Shown here: positions 6,656-26,790 of the stretch, piece by piece
Layout: every line of letters begins with the position of its first letter
Position numbering within the stretch: the stretch's first letter is position 1
IMG/VR virus record: IMGVR_UViG_3300023106_000024
Span: 1-28,957 of that record
Source: a virus
DNA length: 28,957 bases
Strand: one strand, 5' to 3'
The notes under the pieces: model-generated
Told to the model about the DNA's origin: nothing
Databases searched by the model: none
Seen by the model: only the letters and a program-made list of their open reading frames with translations
Translations under genes and position numbers: made by a program

Positions 6656-8950
6656 TTAAGATACTGTGCTTTGGCGAATACCAGCAACACGGCTTCGGTC
6701 TAGGAATGCACCACCTCGGAAGAATGAGCCACGTAGGACTAGTTCGTTTCGTTGGTAAGCAGACTTAACTACACCACCATCTTCGTATGAAGCTTGGCTT
6801 GAGATGTCGTATTGTAGACCACCGCTTGTTCGTCCACGGAACTGTGTAAGGTCAGCGTAGAATACAGCGTGGTTGATTGCAACGTTTGCACCGTCAACTT
6901 GTACAGTAACTGAGTCGTTACCACCTAGTGAAGGCATTAGGTCGTTTGGTACAACAATGAACGGCATACCGAAGATTGTTGGAAGACCACCACCTGTTAG
7001 GATTTCTGCAAGAGGGCCACTAACACCAGCTCGTAGAGCACGTGCCTTTAGTTCAGCGAATGTTCGTGCGTTGAAGATAAGCGTTCCTGAAAGAGTTGTG
7101 TCTGAGATTTCTGTTAGAGCTTCTAGCCATACAGTTAGAGCTGAAGCGTCATCTGCTGGGCTGTAAGCAACTGATGCACCTGTAGCGTCAACAGCTTGTT
7201 CAAGCTTAGCGATAACAAGTTGTGCTCGTTTTCGGTCGTAGTCGTTTCGGTAACCACGTGCAGCGTCTTGTAGAAGGTCAACAGCAGCAAATCGAGTTGC
7301 AGCAGTACATACTACTGAAACAGCAGCAAGTTCTTCTAGGCGTTCAGTGTGTACAACTGTACCGTATTCACTGATTGGCTTAAGGTTTCCGTCTTCGTCG
7401 TCATCACAGAATGCAACGTTTTGCATGTTGATGTCACCAACTCGTTCTGTCCATGCGAAGTCAATTGAGTCAGTTTCTGTCCAGTTAGTTGCACTAAGAA
7501 TTGCTGTGTAGTCGTTACGAGTACCAACGATTTCTGTGTGTAGTTCTGGAGAGATAACGAAGTTACCGATGTCTTCAAGAGTGATAGCGTTACGTACAAC
7601 ACCAGCTTCTTTTAGTGCATCAAGGTTTACTTGGTTGATTTGTCGGAGTTCGTCCCATGCTACGATGCTTTGACCCTTAACGGCGTTCCAAGCAGCAGCA
7701 ACTTGAGCGTTGTATCGCTCGTCAGAACCCATAGCTTTGTATTTGTTTTCTGTTTTGTCCACTTTTTGTGTCTCTTCTTTTTTAAATGTTGGTTCTTTAG
7801 CTGATGTATCAAAAGCGTTCTTTGCTTCTACCTTAGCTGCTTCAAGTTTCTTATCAAAATCTTGTTGCATCTTTACGGCTTCAGCTTGAACTGCGTTCTT
7901 TACTGCTTCAGCAAGAGCGTTTTGGTCAACTTGTGGAGTTTCCTTAGCTGGTTCTTCAACTACTTCTTCCACTTTTTCTTCTTCAGCTACTTCTTCAGTT
8001 TTTACTTCAGTTTCAGCTTCTACTGGTGTTACCACTGTAGGTTCTTCAACTGGTGCAACTACTGGAACTTCAACTGGAGTTTCTTTAGTTTCTTCAGCAG
8101 GTGTTTCAACAACTTTTGGTTGCTCAACAACAGGTGTTTCTACCTTTTTGTCTTCGTCCATTTTGTTTTCCTGTTTATTGTTTGTTTGAGATAATTTCTC
8201 TTTTAGCTCGTCTGTTAGAGCGATAGCATTCTCTATTTCGGAAGTGTCAACTTTTACTTTGTAAGTAACAGTGTTTTCTTCAAGCTTAGGAGTTTCTTCT
8301 TCTGTTTTTGCTTGACTTTTTATGTCGTTTTTTGTTTTGTCGGCTACAGCTTCAGCGTGGTCACCTAAGATTTTATCTTCGATGCCTTCAACGTCTAGGC
8401 CGTTTTCCTTCGAACGTTCAAGCGAATTGTGAACTAACTGGTTAAGGCTAGCATTGTAATTATTCTGGGTAACTACTTGAGACAATCCTACGAGTTCTGC
8501 GTCCCAATAGACACCGTTCTCATCAGGTTGGACACCGATAGTTTCGATTGAAAAGTTTTTGCTGAATCCACCAACGAGTAGGTCATAAGCTAATCTAGCG
8601 TATGGGTTCTCGTTAATAGCATAGCGAATCTTGTCAATTGCAACTCGATAGCCGTCCTTTGAAACACCGATTACTTCTCCGATTAAGCTAGAGAGCTTAT
8701 CTTCGTGGTCGCCTGTTAGTTGACCTCCGTAGCGGTTAACGTCCATTGATTCAATGTCGTACCGTGTTCGGTTTCGTTGTTCCGTATTGTCTGTGATAGT
8801 GAGTCCACCAGGAAATGATACAACGCCGTCACCTTCATCAATGAAAGAGCTTCGTTCGACTTGCACATTTAGTTGGTTAGTGACTTTGTTTTTCACACAA
8901 ACCTCGTTTGTTTTAATGTTCGTTTTGTTTTTGTTGCTGATACTCTGCAA
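6656..8950 (-). CDS. Prohead protease-scaffold-major capsid fusion
   Basis: This 764-residue protein has three parts. Residues about 40-170 look like a herpes-type prohead protease: a histidine in GDHED (H82) and a serine in FSKNFSIET (S134, with S130 nearby) fit its catalytic His and Ser. Residues about 200-400 are a highly charged, Glu/Lys/Pro/Val-rich scaffold-like stretch with predicted coiled coil. From about 405 the sequence is HK97-fold major capsid (WNAVKGQSIVAWDEL, then VISPELHTEIVG, LIFNARTFAELKARALRAG, PFIVVPNDLMP). It would self-assemble, cleave itself and mature the capsid. The first codon at 8950 is TTG with AAGGA only two bases away; a GTG at 8896 behind GAGG is a good alternative. 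Another AGGA-spaced ATG at 8161 may start a scaffold-capsid form. Confidence 0.88.
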   Translation of the reverse strand: MQSISNKNKTNIKTNEVCVKNKVTNQLNVQVERSSFIDEGDGVVSFPGGLTITDNTEQRNRTRYDIESMDVNRYGGQLTGDHEDKLSSLIGEVIGVSKDGYRVAIDKIRYAINENPYARLAYDLLVGGFSKNFSIETIGVQPDENGVYWDAELVGLSQVVTQNNYNASLNQLVHNSLERSKENGLDVEGIEDKILGDHAEAVADKTKNDIKSQAKTEEETPKLEENTVTYKVKVDTSEIENAIALTDELKEKLSQTNNKQENKMDEDKKVETPVVEQPKVVETPAEETKETPVEVPVVAPVEEPTVVTPVEAETEVKTEEVAEEEKVEEVVEEPAKETPQVDQNALAEAVKNAVQAEAVKMQQDFDKKLEAAKVEAKNAFDTSAKEPTFKKEETQKVDKTENKYKAMGSDERYNAQVAAAWNAVKGQSIVAWDELRQINQVNLDALKEAGVVRNAITLEDIGNFVISPELHTEIVGTRNDYTAILSATNWTETDSIDFAWTERVGDINMQNVAFCDDDEDGNLKPISEYGTVVHTERLEELAAVSVVCTAATRFAAVDLLQDAARGYRNDYDRKRAQLVIAKLEQAVDATGASVAYSPADDASALTVWLEALTEISDTTLSGTLIFNARTFAELKARALRAGVSGPLAEILTGGGLPTIFGMPFIVVPNDLMPSLGGNDSVTVQVDGANVAINHAVFYADLTQFRGRTSGGLQYDISSQASYEDGGVVKSAYQRNELVLRGSFFRGGAFLDRSRVAGIRQSTVS
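8161..8176 (-). promoter_or_regulatory. Possible internal ribosome site within the capsid fusion
   Basis: On the minus strand AGGAAAACAAA directly precedes an in-frame ATG at 8161 (Met264 of the fusion, followed by DEDKKVETP), at the junction of the protease and scaffold parts. Spacing from AGGA to ATG is 7 bases. It could yield a protease-free scaffold-capsid product, as nested genes do in lambda. This is inference from the sequence alone. Confidence 0.4.
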
Positions 8951-9438: not shown

Positions 9439-9467
9439 ATTGTACATAACAATTATATTTAAGTCAA
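9439..9467 (-). promoter_or_regulatory. Promoter of the 400-nt RNA
   Basis: On the minus strand TTGACT (9462-9467) is separated by exactly 17 bases from TACAAT (9439-9444), giving a start near 9432. A direct repeat TTAAATATAA lies in the spacer and again just after the -10, and AATTGT/ACAATT forms a small dyad over the -10. Four other sites in the window share the TACAAT -10 with 16-17 base spacing. Confidence 0.75.
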
Positions 9468-14962: not shown

Positions 14963-17900
14963 TTAGTCTTTTATGATTAACACGTATTCACAGTTACAGT
15001 TCGGGTGAACGTTTCCTGCACTTACTGGTTCCCAGTTGATAGGTAGGCTTTTCACTTTGACCGTACCATCTTCTTTTGTTTCTGTTGCAGATAGGGTTGT
15101 GCCTAAATCAGCAAAGTTCTTCATGAATGGGATAGCTGGCTGCCTAATGAGGTATTCACAGTGTACACATGGTGTTCCTGTTCGACTTCGTAGCTGCTTG
15201 TATGCTCTATCCATGAGACCAGAACTGTTTAAGAACTGCTTATCTGCTTCAAATTGGGACTGATTGAATACTCGTGCCGATTCTGTACGTGCGATAGTTG
15301 TTGCACGGTTCTTTGAGATTTCAGGGTATTTATTGCGTACTGCACGAACAATTTCATCACGTCCTGCACCTTCTTGAGCATATTTCTGTGCCTCACGGTA
15401 AAGGGCTGTATTGTCCATGTCTCCTGATTCGATAACACGAATAACTTGCTCACGAGTTGGATTAGGTGGGAATTTCTTAACGACTGATGCTTTCCCCGCT
15501 GCGATTGCTGCAAGTACGAGCGTTGCTAGTTGAGCTGTTATAACAACCGCTGTTGCGATTGCCATTGCTGCTACTAAGTCTTTAATAACAGTTGCAACGT
15601 GTGATTCTGCTGCTTGTTGAGCCATTTGTTCAATGTACGCTTGAGCTTCAGTGGTCATTTCATATGTAGCTAGTTCACCGTACTCTGAAGCACGTTTAGA
15701 CATAAGTTGACGACCAAAGATAGGATATAGGTTGATGTAGAAGACATTTAGCATAGCTGCAACGTCTTGTTCAAACTTTTTACGGTCTTCTTTAGGGATA
15801 ATATCCTTGTTGTTTGCTACTGCTTCAGCTGCGATTTCTACTATTTGACGCTCAACAGTTGCGAAGCCATTACGCAAACGAACTTCTTGTTGTTGGATAA
15901 TGTCACGAGTATCGCCGTCTAAAGCGTTGTAAGCCACGATGAGACCAGACTTAGACAAAGAGTTGTGTTCTTGTCCAACGCTGCTTAGAGAGGGCTTAGA
16001 CGAGCTAGAAACAGCATTGTCTGCATCATCGTCATCATCTTTGTCTTCATGGTCACCATAATTGATGCCTGAAGCTTTAACAGTCTTACCGTTATATACT
16101 TTGCCTAGTGCTTTAACCCAAGGTTCTGGGTTTGCTTCTAGCTTGACATAAGCAAGCGTCATGTGTGGTAGATATTCAGAGAATGTGTTGATGTGAGGTA
16201 GTAGTGTTAGTCGTTCGTGACCGTCTACTAGTTCATCGGTCTTTTCAAGATGTGCAACAATTGCGTATGAGTCAGGAGTTTCAAAGAATCCAACGTGGTC
16301 AATCTTGACAGATTCTAGTTTCCAGTCTTTAAGTAGTAGGTCTACTTTTTCTTTCCATTTGTTGCCGTTTTCAAGTAGTCCATAAAGAAGTGTTACGTGA
16401 GGTACAGTTTCAGCTGGGATTGCCCCTTGGTCAAACTTAGGATTCTCAAATACTTCATCTTCTAGTCCTTCAACGTGCTTTAGAACCTCCATAGGTTCAA
16501 GATTCAACATAATACAGCCCAAATCGTCTGTGTCAATGTCTATATCATCGTATAGCTCAGGATAATCACGTGATGCGATTTGGTTAAGAACTTTTCCCCG
16601 TAGGTTGTTCTCTTCTAGCTTTCCGCCACCAGAACCACCAGGACTTGCACCGTCTTTAGGTTCGTCTGTGTCTTCATCTTCGTCAGTAATGCCGTCTACT
16701 TCATCATCTTCAGTTTTAGGCTTATCAGCAGGAGTTTCTTCTTCGTCTTCAGCTACTTCAGGTTCACCAAGTTCTTCCCATGAGATTTCACCGTTAGCGT
16801 ACTTAAATGCAGCTTCACGTTCGTAGCCGTCAGCAATAAGCTTTTTAGCTAGTTCGTATGCACTGTCTCGGATTTCAATATCTTTAATTTCTGATTCACG
16901 GTCTGATTCAACAGGTGAGTCAACGACAATTTCAAATTCGTTTTCTTCCCATTCATCATACCAGCGTCTATAGTCAAGGTTAAGAGCGTCACAAATGTCC
17001 TCTACACGAGGGATAATTGCGTCAACTGTAAAGTTTTCGTCTTGTGTTTGTGATGTGTCTCGTGTTGTACCAGATTCTTCAATACCAAGAACAGTCTTAC
17101 CTGTACCAGATACAGCAAATAGAATCTTGCTTTGAATATCGTTGATTTTATCAAGTGCAGCCTTATCAAGGTCAATTTGCATGTCTTGCCATCGGATTGC
17201 ACCAGTACCGTTAGCAAAGATAGGTTCACCCTTTTGTTTGCCACGTACACGCTCTTTGAAGTTTTCAAACTTCTGGTCATCAAGCAATACTTCAGTAGAT
17301 ACAACACCAGGAGATGAAATATTACCGTTAATTGTTTGTCGTGTATAGTCACCAGCTTGCTTAAGAGTAAATTGAGACTCTTTAGCTGCATCGGTCATTG
17401 CAAAAGGCTTATCCTTGTCAAATGGGTTAAGCATCTTGATTTCAATAATCTCTTGAGGTGCCCATTCACGGTAAAAGCCATTGTGAGATTCAACGTAACC
17501 ACCAACTTCACCAGTTGATTCTTTGATTACCTTTCGCATCTCATAAGGGTTGATTAGTACGAACTTTTGTACTGCACCAACAGTTGTTTCACCGTTAGCC
17601 TTAGTACGTGAGTTACGAACTGTACCCAAATAGTAAACACCCTCTAGGTCAAGGTATGTAGAGATTTCGTACCAAAACATTTTCTTCGTAAAGTCTTTGC
17701 TTCGGTTTACTACCTTAAGATAAGGGTGGATTAAGTCTTCTTCACGAGATTGGTATTCTTCTACCGTTTTCGCTGAAGCTTCTGTAAGAATAAAACGACG
17801 ACCTAAAACTGATGTTCTGTTCGCACGTTTAACAATGGCTGCATATGAGTAGCCAGTGTACATGTCTTCATCAGACATTTTAACGTCAGACCAATTCTGA

Positions 17901-18022
17901 ACGAGTGGTTTTTGTCCGCTGCCGTAACGGAGGAATCTATTAGCTTCTGAGGTTCCTAGACTATTTTCTGTCTTACCTGTAAGAGCTTGGGCGGCAATTT
18001 TAACACGTTGTTGAAGGTTCAT
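14963..18022 (-). CDS. Portal-MuF fusion with an inserted 2H phosphoesterase domain
   Basis: This 1019-residue protein has a portal body at residues about 1-420 (portal-like segments include YSYAAIVKRANRTSVLGRRF and SKILFAVSGTGKTVLG). An acidic, low-complexity linker covers about 420-470. Residues about 500-655 are a 2H phosphoesterase-like domain with two H-x-T-L motifs, PHVTLLYG (H542) and PHMTLAYV (H620), about 78 residues apart. Residues about 690-1019 form a MuF head-morphogenesis domain ending with ARTESARVFNQSQFE, a CVHCEYLI piece and VHPNCNCEYVLI. Portal and MuF are often adjacent and sometimes fused; the 2H insertion is unusual. 2H enzymes act on 2',3'-cyclic or 2'-5' linked nucleotides and RNA ends, so a nucleotide-directed role in the virion or early infection is possible (inference). 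The start has no strong ribosome site. Confidence 0.85.
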   Translation of the reverse strand: MNLQQRVKIAAQALTGKTENSLGTSEANRFLRYGSGQKPLVQNWSDVKMSDEDMYTGYSYAAIVKRANRTSVLGRRFILTEASAKTVEEYQSREEDLIHPYLKVVNRSKDFTKKMFWYEISTYLDLEGVYYLGTVRNSRTKANGETTVGAVQKFVLINPYEMRKVIKESTGEVGGYVESHNGFYREWAPQEIIEIKMLNPFDKDKPFAMTDAAKESQFTLKQAGDYTRQTINGNISSPGVVSTEVLLDDQKFENFKERVRGKQKGEPIFANGTGAIRWQDMQIDLDKAALDKINDIQSKILFAVSGTGKTVLGIEESGTTRDTSQTQDENFTVDAIIPRVEDICDALNLDYRRWYDEWEENEFEIVVDSPVESDRESEIKDIEIRDSAYELAKKLIADGYEREAAFKYANGEISWEELGEPEVAEDEEETPADKPKTEDDEVDGITDEDEDTDEPKDGASPGGSGGGKLEENNLRGKVLNQIASRDYPELYDDIDIDTDDLGCIMLNLEPMEVLKHVEGLEDEVFENPKFDQGAIPAETVPHVTLLYGLLENGNKWKEKVDLLLKDWKLESVKIDHVGFFETPDSYAIVAHLEKTDELVDGHERLTLLPHINTFSEYLPHMTLAYVKLEANPEPWVKALGKVYNGKTVKASGINYGDHEDKDDDDDADNAVSSSSKPSLSSVGQEHNSLSKSGLIVAYNALDGDTRDIIQQQEVRLRNGFATVERQIVEIAAEAVANNKDIIPKEDRKKFEQDVAAMLNVFYINLYPIFGRQLMSKRASEYGELATYEMTTEAQAYIEQMAQQAAESHVATVIKDLVAAMAIATAVVITAQLATLVLAAIAAGKASVVKKFPPNPTREQVIRVIESGDMDNTALYREAQKYAQEGAGRDEIVRAVRNKYPEISKNRATTIARTESARVFNQSQFEADKQFLNSSGLMDRAYKQLRSRTGTPCVHCEYLIRQPAIPFMKNFADLGTTLSATETKEDGTVKVKSLPINWEPVSAGNVHPNCNCEYVLIIKD

Positions 18023-18393: not shown

Positions 18394-18612
18394 TTAGTCT
18401 TTGTTGCAATCGGTCTTTTCGCCAAGTACGGTTGTACAATATTGCTCTGGTGTCCCTTGATTGTGCACCACTGTAGTCACTGAACAAATAGCTAGGAATA
18501 TAACAAATACAGCTAGAACAATCGCTAGTGAATTTGTAACAGCCTCGCTTCTACCGCCCCATTTTCTAATTAGATATACAGATGTTCGTTCTACAAAATA
18601 TGGCAAAATCAT
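18394..18612 (-). CDS. Single-pass membrane protein
   Basis: This 72-residue protein has a basic N-terminus, one hydrophobic segment (SLAIVLAVFVIFLAICSV, about residues 28-45) and a polar tail with two cysteines (EQYCTTVLGEKTDC). It overlaps the preceding gene by four bases. Its place among other membrane proteins suggests a lysis accessory such as a spanin or holin partner, but no lysin is seen, so this remains a guess. Confidence 0.65.
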   Translation of the reverse strand: MILPYFVERTSVYLIRKWGGRSEAVTNSLAIVLAVFVIFLAICSVTTVVHNQGTPEQYCTTVLGEKTDCNKD

Positions 18613-18950
18613 TTAACTTGTACTCCGTGTTGACATAAATAATATTCTGAGCCGTCAAGTGTTTCAACCTGATACATTCTTGCACAAACTTCCTTGTGAT
18701 ACTGCATGTTTCTTTGAATCATAGGACGGTCAAAACTATGCCACTCTGGATATTGCGTGTGTATTGTTTTTATATAGCCTGGTCTGAAGTTAGGGCTTCT
18801 ATAAGCAGTCTGTATACCCCTATTTGCTTGTCGTGTTGCAAACTCTGAGTATTCACTTTGTTTTTTACTTGGACTGTCTATATCTAGAAAGCTGAAGCTA
18901 ATCTTAGGCGTGTATTCCCATATCTTCGTAATAAAGAAAGGAACAATCAT
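18609..18950 (-). CDS. Hypothetical protein
   Basis: This 113-residue protein starts MIVPFFITKIWEYTPKISF and contains many aromatic and basic residues (YRSPNFRPGYIKTIHTQY, PEWHSFDRPMIQRNMQYH), ending with YYLCQHGVQVK. No convincing membrane segment or catalytic motif is visible and no family is recognised. It overlaps the downstream membrane gene and starts 4 bases after its upstream neighbour, so it is clearly one of that operon's genes. Confidence 0.6.
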   Translation of the reverse strand: MIVPFFITKIWEYTPKISFSFLDIDSPSKKQSEYSEFATRQANRGIQTAYRSPNFRPGYIKTIHTQYPEWHSFDRPMIQRNMQYHKEVCARMYQVETLDGSEYYLCQHGVQVK

Positions 18951-18953
18951 CTT

Positions 18954-19337
18954 CTAGAACCTATAGCTTTTGCTAGATGTCTTGTCTTCTTTAAACTCTT
19001 TAATCTTTTTCACGATGTCTTCAAGTGCGTAGTACTTTGGGTTTCCTAAGTATGCAATAGCACCATAGACAAAGCCAATACCAATAGCAACAGGGATTAA
19101 AGCCCAAAACTGTACGAACTGCCAAAGAATGAAGCCAGCTACAAACAGAATAAGTGCAGTGAATAGCTCATTCGCACCACGGACAATGTATTGTCGTACA
19201 AAGATAGTCCATAGCTCTGAAGCTGCAACGCCAAGACCCTTAGCTAGTGAATCAATCACTTGCTTCGCTTGAGCACCTAATACAGCAACTGCATCTGTCT
19301 CAATTTGCTTTTCTGCTTGTGTTTTCTTAGCAGCCAT
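18954..19337 (-). CDS. Membrane protein, possibly holin-like
   Basis: This 127-residue protein has an Ala-rich helical N-terminus (about residues 1-55). Two adjacent hydrophobic stretches follow (ELFTALILFVAGFILWQFV and ALIPVAIGIGFVYGAIAYLG, about 57-95), then a Lys-rich tail (VKKIKEFKEDKTSSKSYRF). Two transmembrane helices and a basic end resemble class II holin-like topology, but the long N-terminal helix is atypical. It follows the Gly-rich small protein at 19339-19527 with one base between. Confidence 0.55.
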   Translation of the reverse strand: MAAKKTQAEKQIETDAVAVLGAQAKQVIDSLAKGLGVAASELWTIFVRQYIVRGANELFTALILFVAGFILWQFVQFWALIPVAIGIGFVYGAIAYLGNPKYYALEDIVKKIKEFKEDKTSSKSYRF

Positions 19338-19338
19338 A

Positions 19339-19527
19339 TTATTCTTCGTCTTTCTTTTTGTCTAGAGTTACTGCACCAGCAACTAGACCAAGTAGAACGC
19401 TTTTAGCTTTCTCATTATCACTGATGAAATAACCAACTAATGCACCAAGTAGTGCACCTTTATTTTGCTTGACGATTTCAGGAGCTTTTTCCTCAAAGCC
19501 GTCTTGTACTTTTTCTATTAAATTCAT
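19339..19527 (-). CDS. Small glycine-rich membrane-associated protein
   Basis: This 62-residue protein carries a Gly/Ala/Leu segment (KGALLGALVGYFISDNEKAK, then SVLLGLVAGAVTL), flanked by acidic and basic ends. It may form one or two short hydrophobic helices. The start follows GAGAGGGTAAA, a strong ribosome site. It is the first gene after the large non-coding region and would be translated from whatever transcript reads through it. Confidence 0.6.
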   Translation of the reverse strand: MNLIEKVQDGFEEKAPEIVKQNKGALLGALVGYFISDNEKAKSVLLGLVAGAVTLDKKKDEE

Positions 19528-19555
19528 TTTACCCTCTCTTACTTTAAATGTACCG

Positions 19556-20402
19556 TGCTAGTAGCAATCTCAAGCACTTTAATCTAAAATGCTTAGAATC
19601 TCTATCGTCATAGAGTTTGCTTGAGTCAGGCGGGACTGCATACACTCTTGTTCTATCTGCCAACTTCGATGTCGTTGAATACACAGATGAGCTTTAGCAT
19701 GACCAGTGAACCCTTTACGTCCTTTGTATTGCTACAGCTACTCAAGAGGCTAGGTGAGCTAGGCACTTTAGGTCTAGGTTCTAGTATTGAGACTGCTATT
19801 ACTACCAGTACGTTACATTTAATTGATGTGAAGTTATGGACTAGAGCTGTTGTCTCATGGGGTCTCATGTCTCTGAAATTCTCCAGATGCCACGTTCCTA
19901 CTCTAATTCATAATCGTGTAAATACTTAGCCCGTATACGGTGATGAATTGTCTGCAACTAGTTATATTAGACTTTGCATGTTCTATAGGTATTTCTACCG
20001 CAAACTTCAGGGGTTCACTTGCCCCTCTCTTGTTGTTGCCGTTTCCTAGATTTATTTCAATACACAATGAGCGTGAGGTAGGGATTCCCGCTTTTGCCAC
20101 CCTACATGACGGAGCTATCTCAACGCTTCCCGTCAACTACTGTTGAGACCCACCATAGGTGCTGTACCAAAAAGTATGTTTACTAATTAACGTCTATTAC
20201 ATCACTCACACTCGTAACAATCAACGCCCACAAGGGAGCGTCTCAAGAAGTTATCCCACACATGGTAGGTAACTATTGACAATACAAGGCTCAACCTATC
20301 AAGCAGTACTACCTATAATAGGGCTTTACGCTTTTCAGCCAGTCCCTAAGAACCAACGACCTTATATTGCCATAACTTCACACCAAGTTGTTAATGTTCT
20401 AC
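19556..20402 (-). ncRNA. Candidate large structured non-coding RNA, roughly 850 nt
   Basis: Positions 19528-20441 hold no ribosome-site-supported ORF on either strand, but show nested pairing on the minus strand. A 16-bp helix pairs 20370-20385 with 19824-19839 and encloses about 560 nt. Inside are an 8-bp helix (20144-20151 with 19860-19867) and hairpins at 20249-20274, 20224-20241, 20118-20148, 20078-20105 and 20009-20026. A GGTA-GAAA-TACC hairpin at 19988-19999 has a GNRA loop. A second domain is closed by 19728-19738 with 19557-19568 (11 bp, one bulge) and contains 19618-19625 with 19569-19576 and a hairpin at 19600-19615. Several helices include G.U pairs valid only on the minus strand. 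The promoter at 20408-20436 would start it near 20402; the 3' end is not defined by a terminator. Length and phage context recall the GOLLD and ROOL classes, but I cannot show homology. Confidence 0.7.
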
Positions 20403-20446
20403 TTATCATTGTAAATCAAAATGGTGTGAAATTCAATAGGGTTATG
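20371..20446 (-). repeat. Inverted repeat across the large-RNA promoter
   Basis: TTCACACCA (minus, 20422-20430) and TGGTGTGAA (minus, 20377-20385) are perfect 9-base arms. CATAAC (20441-20446) and GTTATG (20371-20376) add a further 6 bp. The first arm lies in the spacer of the promoter, so it is probably upstream of the transcript start. The second arm is also the 5' strand of the 16-bp closing helix. The DNA dyad could be an operator. Confidence 0.55.
20408..20436 (-). promoter_or_regulatory. Promoter for the large structured RNA
   Basis: On the minus strand TTGAAT (20431-20436) and TACAAT (20408-20413) are separated by exactly 17 bases, a good sigma70-type promoter. It sits directly after the stop of the helix-turn-helix gene at 20442, so the RNA need not depend on that gene's transcript. 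Confidence 0.6.
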
Positions 20447-20712: not shown

Positions 20713-20741
20713 ATTGTAAATTATTAGTTGCAAAAAGGCAA
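20713..20741 (-). promoter_or_regulatory. Promoter of the HTH gene, with dyad
   Basis: TTGCCT (20736-20741), 17 bases, TACAAT (20713-20718) on the minus strand. A TACAATTGTA palindrome and ATTAGTAATC follow directly, the latter resembling ATTAGTAAAG after the promoters at 24206 and 24922. A TCACGA/TCGTGA pairing surrounds the ribosome site and could modulate initiation or bind the HTH protein. Confidence 0.65.
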
Positions 20742-24205: not shown

Positions 24206-24234
24206 ATTGTAAAGAAAAACTATTTAAAAGTCAA
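24206..24234 (-). promoter_or_regulatory. Early promoter, TACAAT class
   Basis: TTGACT (24229-24234), 17 bases, TACAAT (24206-24211) on the minus strand, followed by AGAAATTAGTAAAGA and then the AGGAATCACCAGCA leader. It drives the 24168 gene and its downstream partners. Confidence 0.75.
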
Positions 24235-24921: not shown

Positions 24922-24949
24922 ATTGTAAAGGGAAACTACCAAAAGTCAA
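24922..24949 (-). promoter_or_regulatory. Early promoter, TACAAT class
   Basis: TTGACT (24944-24949), 16 bases, TACAAT (24922-24927), then GGATATTAGTAAAGAAG and the AGGAAATCACCAGC leader. It matches the promoter at 24206-24234 in both hexamers and in the downstream ATTAGTAAAG. Confidence 0.75.
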
Positions 24950-26070: not shown

Positions 26071-26790
26071 CTAGCCGTCACTACGTCCCTCTGGATAATA
26101 GTCAACCATTTCTAGTACTTTGTCATAATCAGCTTTGCCAAAGTAAGCGTGACCGTCTGTCTTAATGAATGTGCCCCATTTGTACGGTAAGTCCAGTGAT
26201 TCCCAGTCTTTACCCTTTGCACGAATCAACTCTTGAAGTTCGGTAACATTTTTACCGTTCAATTGATTCTGGCTATATAAGCTACGAGCTAACATCTGGA
26301 TAGAGTTACGTTCCCAGTCTCGTTGTCGCCAGATAAACACATTAGGGTAATCATCATGGGGGACATTGAATGCACGAGCGTCAAAGAATGCCAGACCCTG
26401 TAGAGTCTTCGTACTATTGTGATTCTTATTTAGCCACTCGTTAAAGTAAGCCGTGAACATAGAAGCGGTGATTGATACGATTTTATTTACTTCGTTATCA
26501 AACCATGCCCCAGTTTCTAGCGTGTCGTAATCACTTAATAAGAAAGTTGCTTCGTCTGATTGCACATAAGCTAATTTGAAGCCCTGCATGTTTTCAGCAG
26601 TCTTTGCGGTTGCGTATGCCATAGCTTTTACAAGTTGCTTATCAAAAGGCTTCTCACAGCCTCGTGTGAACGTATGGAAGGCTTTACCGTCTACTCTTAC
26701 TATAACTGGCGTTCTACGGCTCAGGAGGGGCTTAGAAACAGCCTCATAGCGTTTTACACGGTCTCCTAGTGTGTCCCGATTAGTCTTCAT
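26071..26790 (-). CDS. Thg1-like tRNA-His guanylyltransferase (3'-5' polymerase)
   Basis: This 239-residue protein matches the Thg1 family: PVIVRVDGKAFHTFTRG (metal Asp, D34) and AYVQSDEATFLL (D79, E80) give the three carboxylates of the palm-like active site. NVFIWRQRDWERNSI follows the family pattern around residue 150. Thg1 adds G at the 5' end of tRNA-His in reverse polymerisation; Thg1-like proteins more broadly repair tRNA 5' ends with a template. In phages the likely use is repair or maturation of host or phage tRNAs, possibly against tRNA damage. No tRNA gene is in the window. Length is close to typical. Its C-terminus is followed by the hairpin at 26008-26052. Confidence 0.88.
   Translation of the reverse strand: MKTNRDTLGDRVKRYEAVSKPLLSRRTPVIVRVDGKAFHTFTRGCEKPFDKQLVKAMAYATAKTAENMQGFKLAYVQSDEATFLLSDYDTLETGAWFDNEVNKIVSITASMFTAYFNEWLNKNHNSTKTLQGLAFFDARAFNVPHDDYPNVFIWRQRDWERNSIQMLARSLYSQNQLNGKNVTELQELIRAKGKDWESLDLPYKWGTFIKTDGHAYFGKADYDKVLEMVDYYPEGRSDG

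Follow-up and report, generated by a model that had tools for sequence, protein, structure and literature searches.

Sequence comparison revealed a conserved structured RNA, RNA1, in three phages. In the window, the 28,957-nt virus record analysed here, RNA1 is a large structured non-coding RNA of ~564 nt on the minus strand (19823-20386), identified by its homologues, by fold z-scores and by a leave-one-out family model. The two other forms are found in IMGVR_UViG_3300013102_000006 (L006) and IMGVR_UViG_3300028920_000115 (L016), and together the three look like a new, uncatalogued RNA family. Searches of an open-access library revealed no paper on this family, which may have been described elsewhere. 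To our knowledge, very few families of giant phage RNAs are known, and the best studied of them form RNA-only cages of unknown function. If confirmed, RNA1 would represent a further, unrelated family with a natural minimal form of 245 nt, which would be a small object for structure determination and, consisting of the core only, would reveal which part of the RNA matters.

Homologues of RNA1 and family model

A search with the Thg1-like protein of the window (26071-26790) as query revealed nine loci. One of them, L006, is syntenic with the window and carries the same genes for a 62-aa and a 127-aa protein as well as the portal gene. Its RNA1 homologue (17133-17575, plus strand) is a 442-nt form upstream of the 62-aa gene, with the same ends as in the window (GGUGUGAAGUUAUGG and CCAUAACUUCACAUC) and a common hairpin. 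A scan of the viral collection with this common hairpin detected one more phage, L016, with a compact RNA of ~245 nt (7514-7757, plus strand). This phage has only one 46-aa tail-protein stretch in common with the window and is otherwise unrelated.

A leave-one-out model built from L006 and L016 only detected the window RNA at 20110-20069 (50.5 bits, E=3e-12); the second-best match scored 8.6 bits (E 2.9). Among 15 phage records, a model of the P5-P3 region found only the window, L006 and L016. Blast of the RNA1 region against phages revealed no match, searches with the short hairpin in phages and plasmids gave none or chance matches, and relatives of the portal protein showed no comparable gap beside the portal gene. 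Other pattern matches in viral and bacterial/genome collections were taken as chance; supporting context was absent, and most of those checked lay within long open frames. One of the pattern matches, an 18-nt match to P1 in L102, came with no other common feature.

Core architecture and compensatory changes

Comparison of the three forms showed a conserved core, a multi-way junction closed by helix P2, in which hairpin H1 and the near-invariant hairpin P3 lie on opposite sides. Window, L006 and L016 share the order of P2, a hairpin with an AAUAG loop, and the P3 hairpin GUAGGG-UGG(N2-4)AGCGGGAAU-CCCUAC. The junction layout is also the same in all three: H1 follows straight after P2, P5 and then P3 lie ahead of the 3' strand of P2, and P3 abuts P2.

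P2 pairs 20205-20213 with 20069-20077 on the minus strand and varies among the members with two-sided changes, of which there are four among nine positions between the window and L016 and three between L006 and L016, leaving out one extra G in the L016 5' strand. Directly after it, H1 (20189-20203) has its conserved AAUAG loop within a stretch, RYGDAAUAGMCGU, that is similar in all three phages, and four to five of its five pairs form in each of them. The P5 hairpin just 5' of P3 (20108-20134, GACG..CGUC) has four closing pairs in all three RNAs, with two-sided changes, and its inner part differs among them. P3 (20078-20105, GUAGGG-UGGCAAAAGCGGGAAU-CCCUAC) is the most conserved element, with an invariant helix and a nearly invariant loop; since it shows no variation, it speaks neither for nor against pairing.

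Outside P2, the strands of helix P1.1 (CAAUAUAAGGU at 20359-20369 and GCCUUGUAUUG at 20280-20290) form 11 pairs in the window, and the comparison with L006 revealed two-sided compensatory changes at three of these 11 positions and no broken pair. Between P1.1 and P2, the predicted minus-strand fold contains the hairpin GUUACCUACC..GGGAUAAC (20249-20274), as the first-pass annotation had described; the matching stretch of L006 also forms a branched stem, with a different sequence. In L016, P1 runs almost directly into P2 and the core makes up the whole RNA, with a different 9-bp helix (UAUAGUUUG/CAAACUAUA) at the position of P1, whereas the P1 of the window and of L006 has further domains inside it as well.

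The P1.1 and P2 pairings were aligned by hand, and three sequences are too few for a formal covariation test to have power. A MAFFT-based RNAalifold analysis of the two close members was unreliable in the variable parts and was left out. The first-pass annotation had named helices that do not covary, or a conserved protein, as outcomes that would refute its RNA; neither arose, as P2 and P1.1 covary and no protein is conserved. P1, invariant between the window and L006, speaks neither for nor against its own pairing.

Extent, fold energy and strand of RNA1

RNA1 is closed by P1, which pairs 20370-20386 with 19823-19839 on the minus strand and comprises 17 pairs in the window and 16 in L006. Sixteen of the 17 window pairs are Watson-Crick and one is a G.U pair on the minus strand. 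The closing helix had earlier been described with 16 bp; it is present as 17 pairs (20386-20370 with 19839-19823) and is rare in shuffled sequence. When the 901-nt stretch was shuffled with its dinucleotides preserved, two of 1000 sequences contained a long-range helix of at least the strength of P1, and a 17-pair run including G.U appeared in two of 300.

Fold z-scores against shuffles were -2.2 for the 566-nt RNA1 domain of the window and -2.8 for the L006 form, and the compact L016 RNA scored far stronger (-6.5). Because the value for the window copy is only moderate, energy alone is no proof of RNA1. The whole 901 nt scored -1.9 on the minus strand and -2.7 on the plus strand, and as the plus strand is thus slightly better, the strand cannot be chosen on fold energy alone. 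The minus strand is supported by the G.U pairs, by the promoter-like site and by the orientation of the homologues relative to the genes. The earlier proposal of a large structured non-coding RNA on the minus strand is therefore backed by the homologues, by compensatory changes and by a conserved promoter-like site.

A 60-nt inverted repeat lies at 20374-20433, through which GGUGUGAAGUU, the 5' strand of P1, has a second possible partner, UUCACACC in the promoter region. In the window, this pairing could form in place of P1; L006 has no such upstream copy.

Promoter-like motif

A promoter-like site, TTGAAT-N17-TACAAT (20408-20436, minus strand), was recognised purely by consensus matching, with nine of 12 positions matching. 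It ends ~7 nt before the expected transcript start (~20401), and RNA1 (20386) begins ~20 nt downstream of the site. In L006, TTGACT-N17-TACAAT (17081-17109) occupies the same position upstream of the RNA, although the upstream gene differs; a promoter of this type was not recognised in L016.

A search with at most one mismatch revealed five matches to the motif in the window, four of them intergenic on the coding strand, where chance would give a mean of 1.15 over both strands. On the window minus strand, three sites match exactly and a fourth has a mismatch. A regular-expression scan yielded four window sites and, across the fetched parts of the relative G005, six more, including those of both RNAs. 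The motif thus stands upstream of RNA1, of the second RNA described below and of several genes. The minus-strand sites of the form TTGACT-N16/17-TTTACAAT are located at 9439-9467, 20408-20436, 20713-20741, 24206-24234 and ~24922-24949, and the site at 20741 departs from this form in its first hexamer.

Neighbouring genes

Downstream of RNA1, the window encodes on its minus strand a 62-aa glycine-rich protein (19339-19527) and a 127-aa membrane protein (18954-19337; phrog_1486 membrane protein, 2.5e-9), both identified as ORFs. The two genes are kept next to the RNA in L006 and are likely co-transcribed with RNA1. The genes beside the L016 RNA are very short ORFs that differ from those of the window, which favours a role that is independent of any single downstream gene while leaving room for action in cis. 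Short hydrophobic proteins are encoded beside the RNA in all three phages, in L016 at 7400-7492 and 8116-8247.

RNA1 itself had been annotated as non-coding at first pass, and no protein is conserved there: the ORF stretches of the window matched the homologues only at conserved nucleotide blocks and in several frames at once, and the longest open stretch on the coding strand of the L016 RNA has 26 codons.

Small ORFs beginning with MxxPYF or MxxPFF are found at 18394-18950 (minus strand) and at 18754-20001 of L006, several of them consecutive in this relative, and are perhaps a family of small membrane proteins. The 1019-aa portal ORF (14963-18022, minus strand) contains an inserted domain at residues ~482-656 that resembles 2'-5' RNA ligases and 2H phosphoesterases; the anti-CBASS protein Acb1 also matched it weakly, short of the Acb1 cut-off. 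In L003 and L005, the portal homologues have ~700 aa, and their alignments skip the inserted domain. The Thg1-like protein (minus strand) is a homologue of tRNA-His guanylyltransferase; the nearest named phages for it infect Mycobacterium (53% identity), and the G+C content of the window is only 41%.

A second domain present only in the window

Between RNA1 and the 62-aa gene, the window contains a second folded domain (19544-19821, minus strand) with a fold z-score of -2.8. Its minimum-energy fold has a longer, interrupted closing helix between the two ends of the domain. Such a domain had been noticed at first pass, and the fold is real; the pairing of 19728-19738 with 19557-19568 that was proposed to close it is only an alternative to the minimum-energy fold. 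The domain is absent from L006 and L016 and has no match in the fetched loci. In L006, the 62-aa gene has its ribosome site directly after P1 with no second domain between. The domain represents either inserted sequence or an additional RNA domain of the window phage, and as a part of RNA1 it is a candidate with a predicted fold. Imperfect inverted ends and a TTAA at both edges of 19544-19821 are features that an inserted element might have.

A second RNA candidate

A further RNA candidate, RNA2 (~9433-9040, minus strand), lies in a stretch with no assigned gene downstream of a promoter of the same type (9467-9439) and has a fold z-score of -4.2. A terminator-like hairpin followed by seven T is located near 9060-9033. 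The homologue in a relative (L068, ~9435-8371, minus strand) comprises ~950-1,070 nt with blocks at 70-80% identity, and comparison of this stretch with Rfam at E<=5 gave nothing beyond chance.

The RNA2 of the relative holds a module with the P1/P1.1 layout of RNA1, in which a common UAUGGCAAUAUAA is followed by UUGUC. As the 13-mer common to RNA1 and this module has, taken alone, a blast E-value of 0.36-0.67, homology of the helix modules of RNA1 and RNA2 is only a suggestion. We tentatively raise the possibility that RNA1 and RNA2 are two modular giant RNAs with a partly common helix module and the same promoter class, which might form a new RNA-only or RNA-membrane assembly used during infection and unrelated in sequence to ROOL or GOLLD. 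Two giant RNAs with their own promoters in one phage would make the use of giant RNAs by phages directly testable.

Searches against known RNA families

At the gathering score, Rfam 15 gave no match in the whole window, L006, L007, L003, L005 and L002, and permissive Rfam scans (E<=10) of the three RNAs gave only matches far below the cut-off. A match to mir-2513, also far below its cut-off, corresponds to the 60-nt inverted repeat at the 5' end. A group I or II intron, RNase P and tmRNA were rejected, with no Rfam or ARAGORN match, and neither the window nor the searched regions of the relatives yielded a tRNA gene.

The ROOL model (RF03087, cut-off 99.1 bits) gave no match at E<=10 in G000, G005 and G014 and detected the ROOL of pMP118, used as positive control, at 130.4 bits. 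The GOLLD model (RF02032, cut-off 150 bits) likewise gave no match at E<=10 in the window phage or its homologues, a negative result that is less firm than that for ROOL because no control genome passed the GOLLD cut-off.

Proposed role of RNA1

RNA1, a structured RNA of a new family, is probably transcribed from a promoter of its own and probably acts in trans as a scaffold. With a promoter of the phage's own class, the transcript would start at ~20401 and continue into the downstream membrane-protein genes. RNA1 could be released by processing near P1 or fold as a stable part of the operon transcript. It would then serve as a scaffold in trans that a protein partner or other copies of RNA1 would contact at the near-invariant P3 loop (UGG..AGCGGGAAU) and at the AAUAG loop, as for ROOL and GOLLD.

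The main rival explanation is a long cis-acting 5' leader that regulates the membrane-protein operon (19527-18116), for instance by ligand sensing through the P3 loop or through an RNA polymerase modified to read through terminators. The promoter-like site upstream of RNA1, the same two genes downstream in both close relatives, and in L006 the missing terminator between RNA and genes and a ribosome site straight after P1 would all fit a leader. However, the L016 core adjoins different, very short ORFs, the window has a 278-nt extra domain between RNA1 and the genes, and 440-560 nt would be very long for a leader, so that we regard this explanation as possible but clearly less probable than a scaffold.

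RNA1 might instead bind one of the adjacent small membrane proteins in a membrane-anchored RNA-protein complex resembling that of OLE RNA and its partner OapA, which is a membrane protein (PMC12286853). Short hydrophobic proteins adjoining the RNA in all three phages are consistent with this idea; yet phages commonly carry small hydrophobic ORFs, the L016 ones need not be homologous to those of the window, and the Rfam scan was without an OLE match, which makes such a complex unlikely. It is very improbable that RNA1 is a true GOLLD or ROOL whose divergence puts it beyond the reach of the models: its size of ~560 nt and the phage context are similar, but neither model matched at E<=10 while the pMP118 ROOL was recovered at 130 bits, a compact member of 245 nt falls far below the length of either family, and no tRNA genes were found nearby. 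That there is no functional RNA, and decaying sequence or DNA inverted repeats fold by chance, would suit the modest z-scores of the window copy but is hardly credible given the near-invariant core in distant phages, the compensatory changes and the z-score of -6.5 of the compact form, and for the core it is contradicted by the existence of homologues.

Comparison with known structured RNAs

The phi29 packaging RNA (pRNA) has ~174 nt. Like the scaffold proposed for RNA1, it is a structured RNA encoded by a phage and acting in trans within an assembly; it differs in that RNA1 has no such Rfam match and the L016 RNA lies ~4.6 kb from the terminase. OLE RNA is, as far as we know, bacterial rather than from phages. 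As a large RNA that works with a membrane protein it recalls RNA1, which adjoins membrane-protein genes, but the window has no Rfam match to it.

The lncRNAs of phage K (Kayvirus) have been compared with GOLLD and ROOL by their authors (PMC9241854), a comparison that rests on their position near tRNA genes and their abundance (PMC9241854). Searches with the RNA1 sequence in the phage collection gave no match.

ROOL forms an octameric RNA cage. RNA1 resembles it as a large structured phage RNA with no known protein partner, whose window form is close in length to the ROOL model (574 positions). The L. salivarius RNA, our ROOL control, has 520 nt and is very abundant (PMC5643018). Both ROOL and GOLLD are RNAs of phages and prophages, with unknown function and cage-like oligomers, that are often found near tRNA islands (PMC12286853); in contrast to ROOL, no tRNA genes were found around RNA1, and the RNA1 family includes a compact form of 245 nt. 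GOLLD, many members of which exceed 800 nt (PMC12286853), is likewise a giant phage RNA with one conserved and one variable part. Its conserved region is at the 3' end (PMC12286853) and its 5' part is variable, whereas the core of RNA1 is internal and both flanks vary. The RNA1 family is similar in kind to these large phage RNAs but not supported as a member of GOLLD or ROOL. The first-pass annotation had offered membership or analogy: membership finds no backing in the models, and analogue is a fair description by size and phage context.
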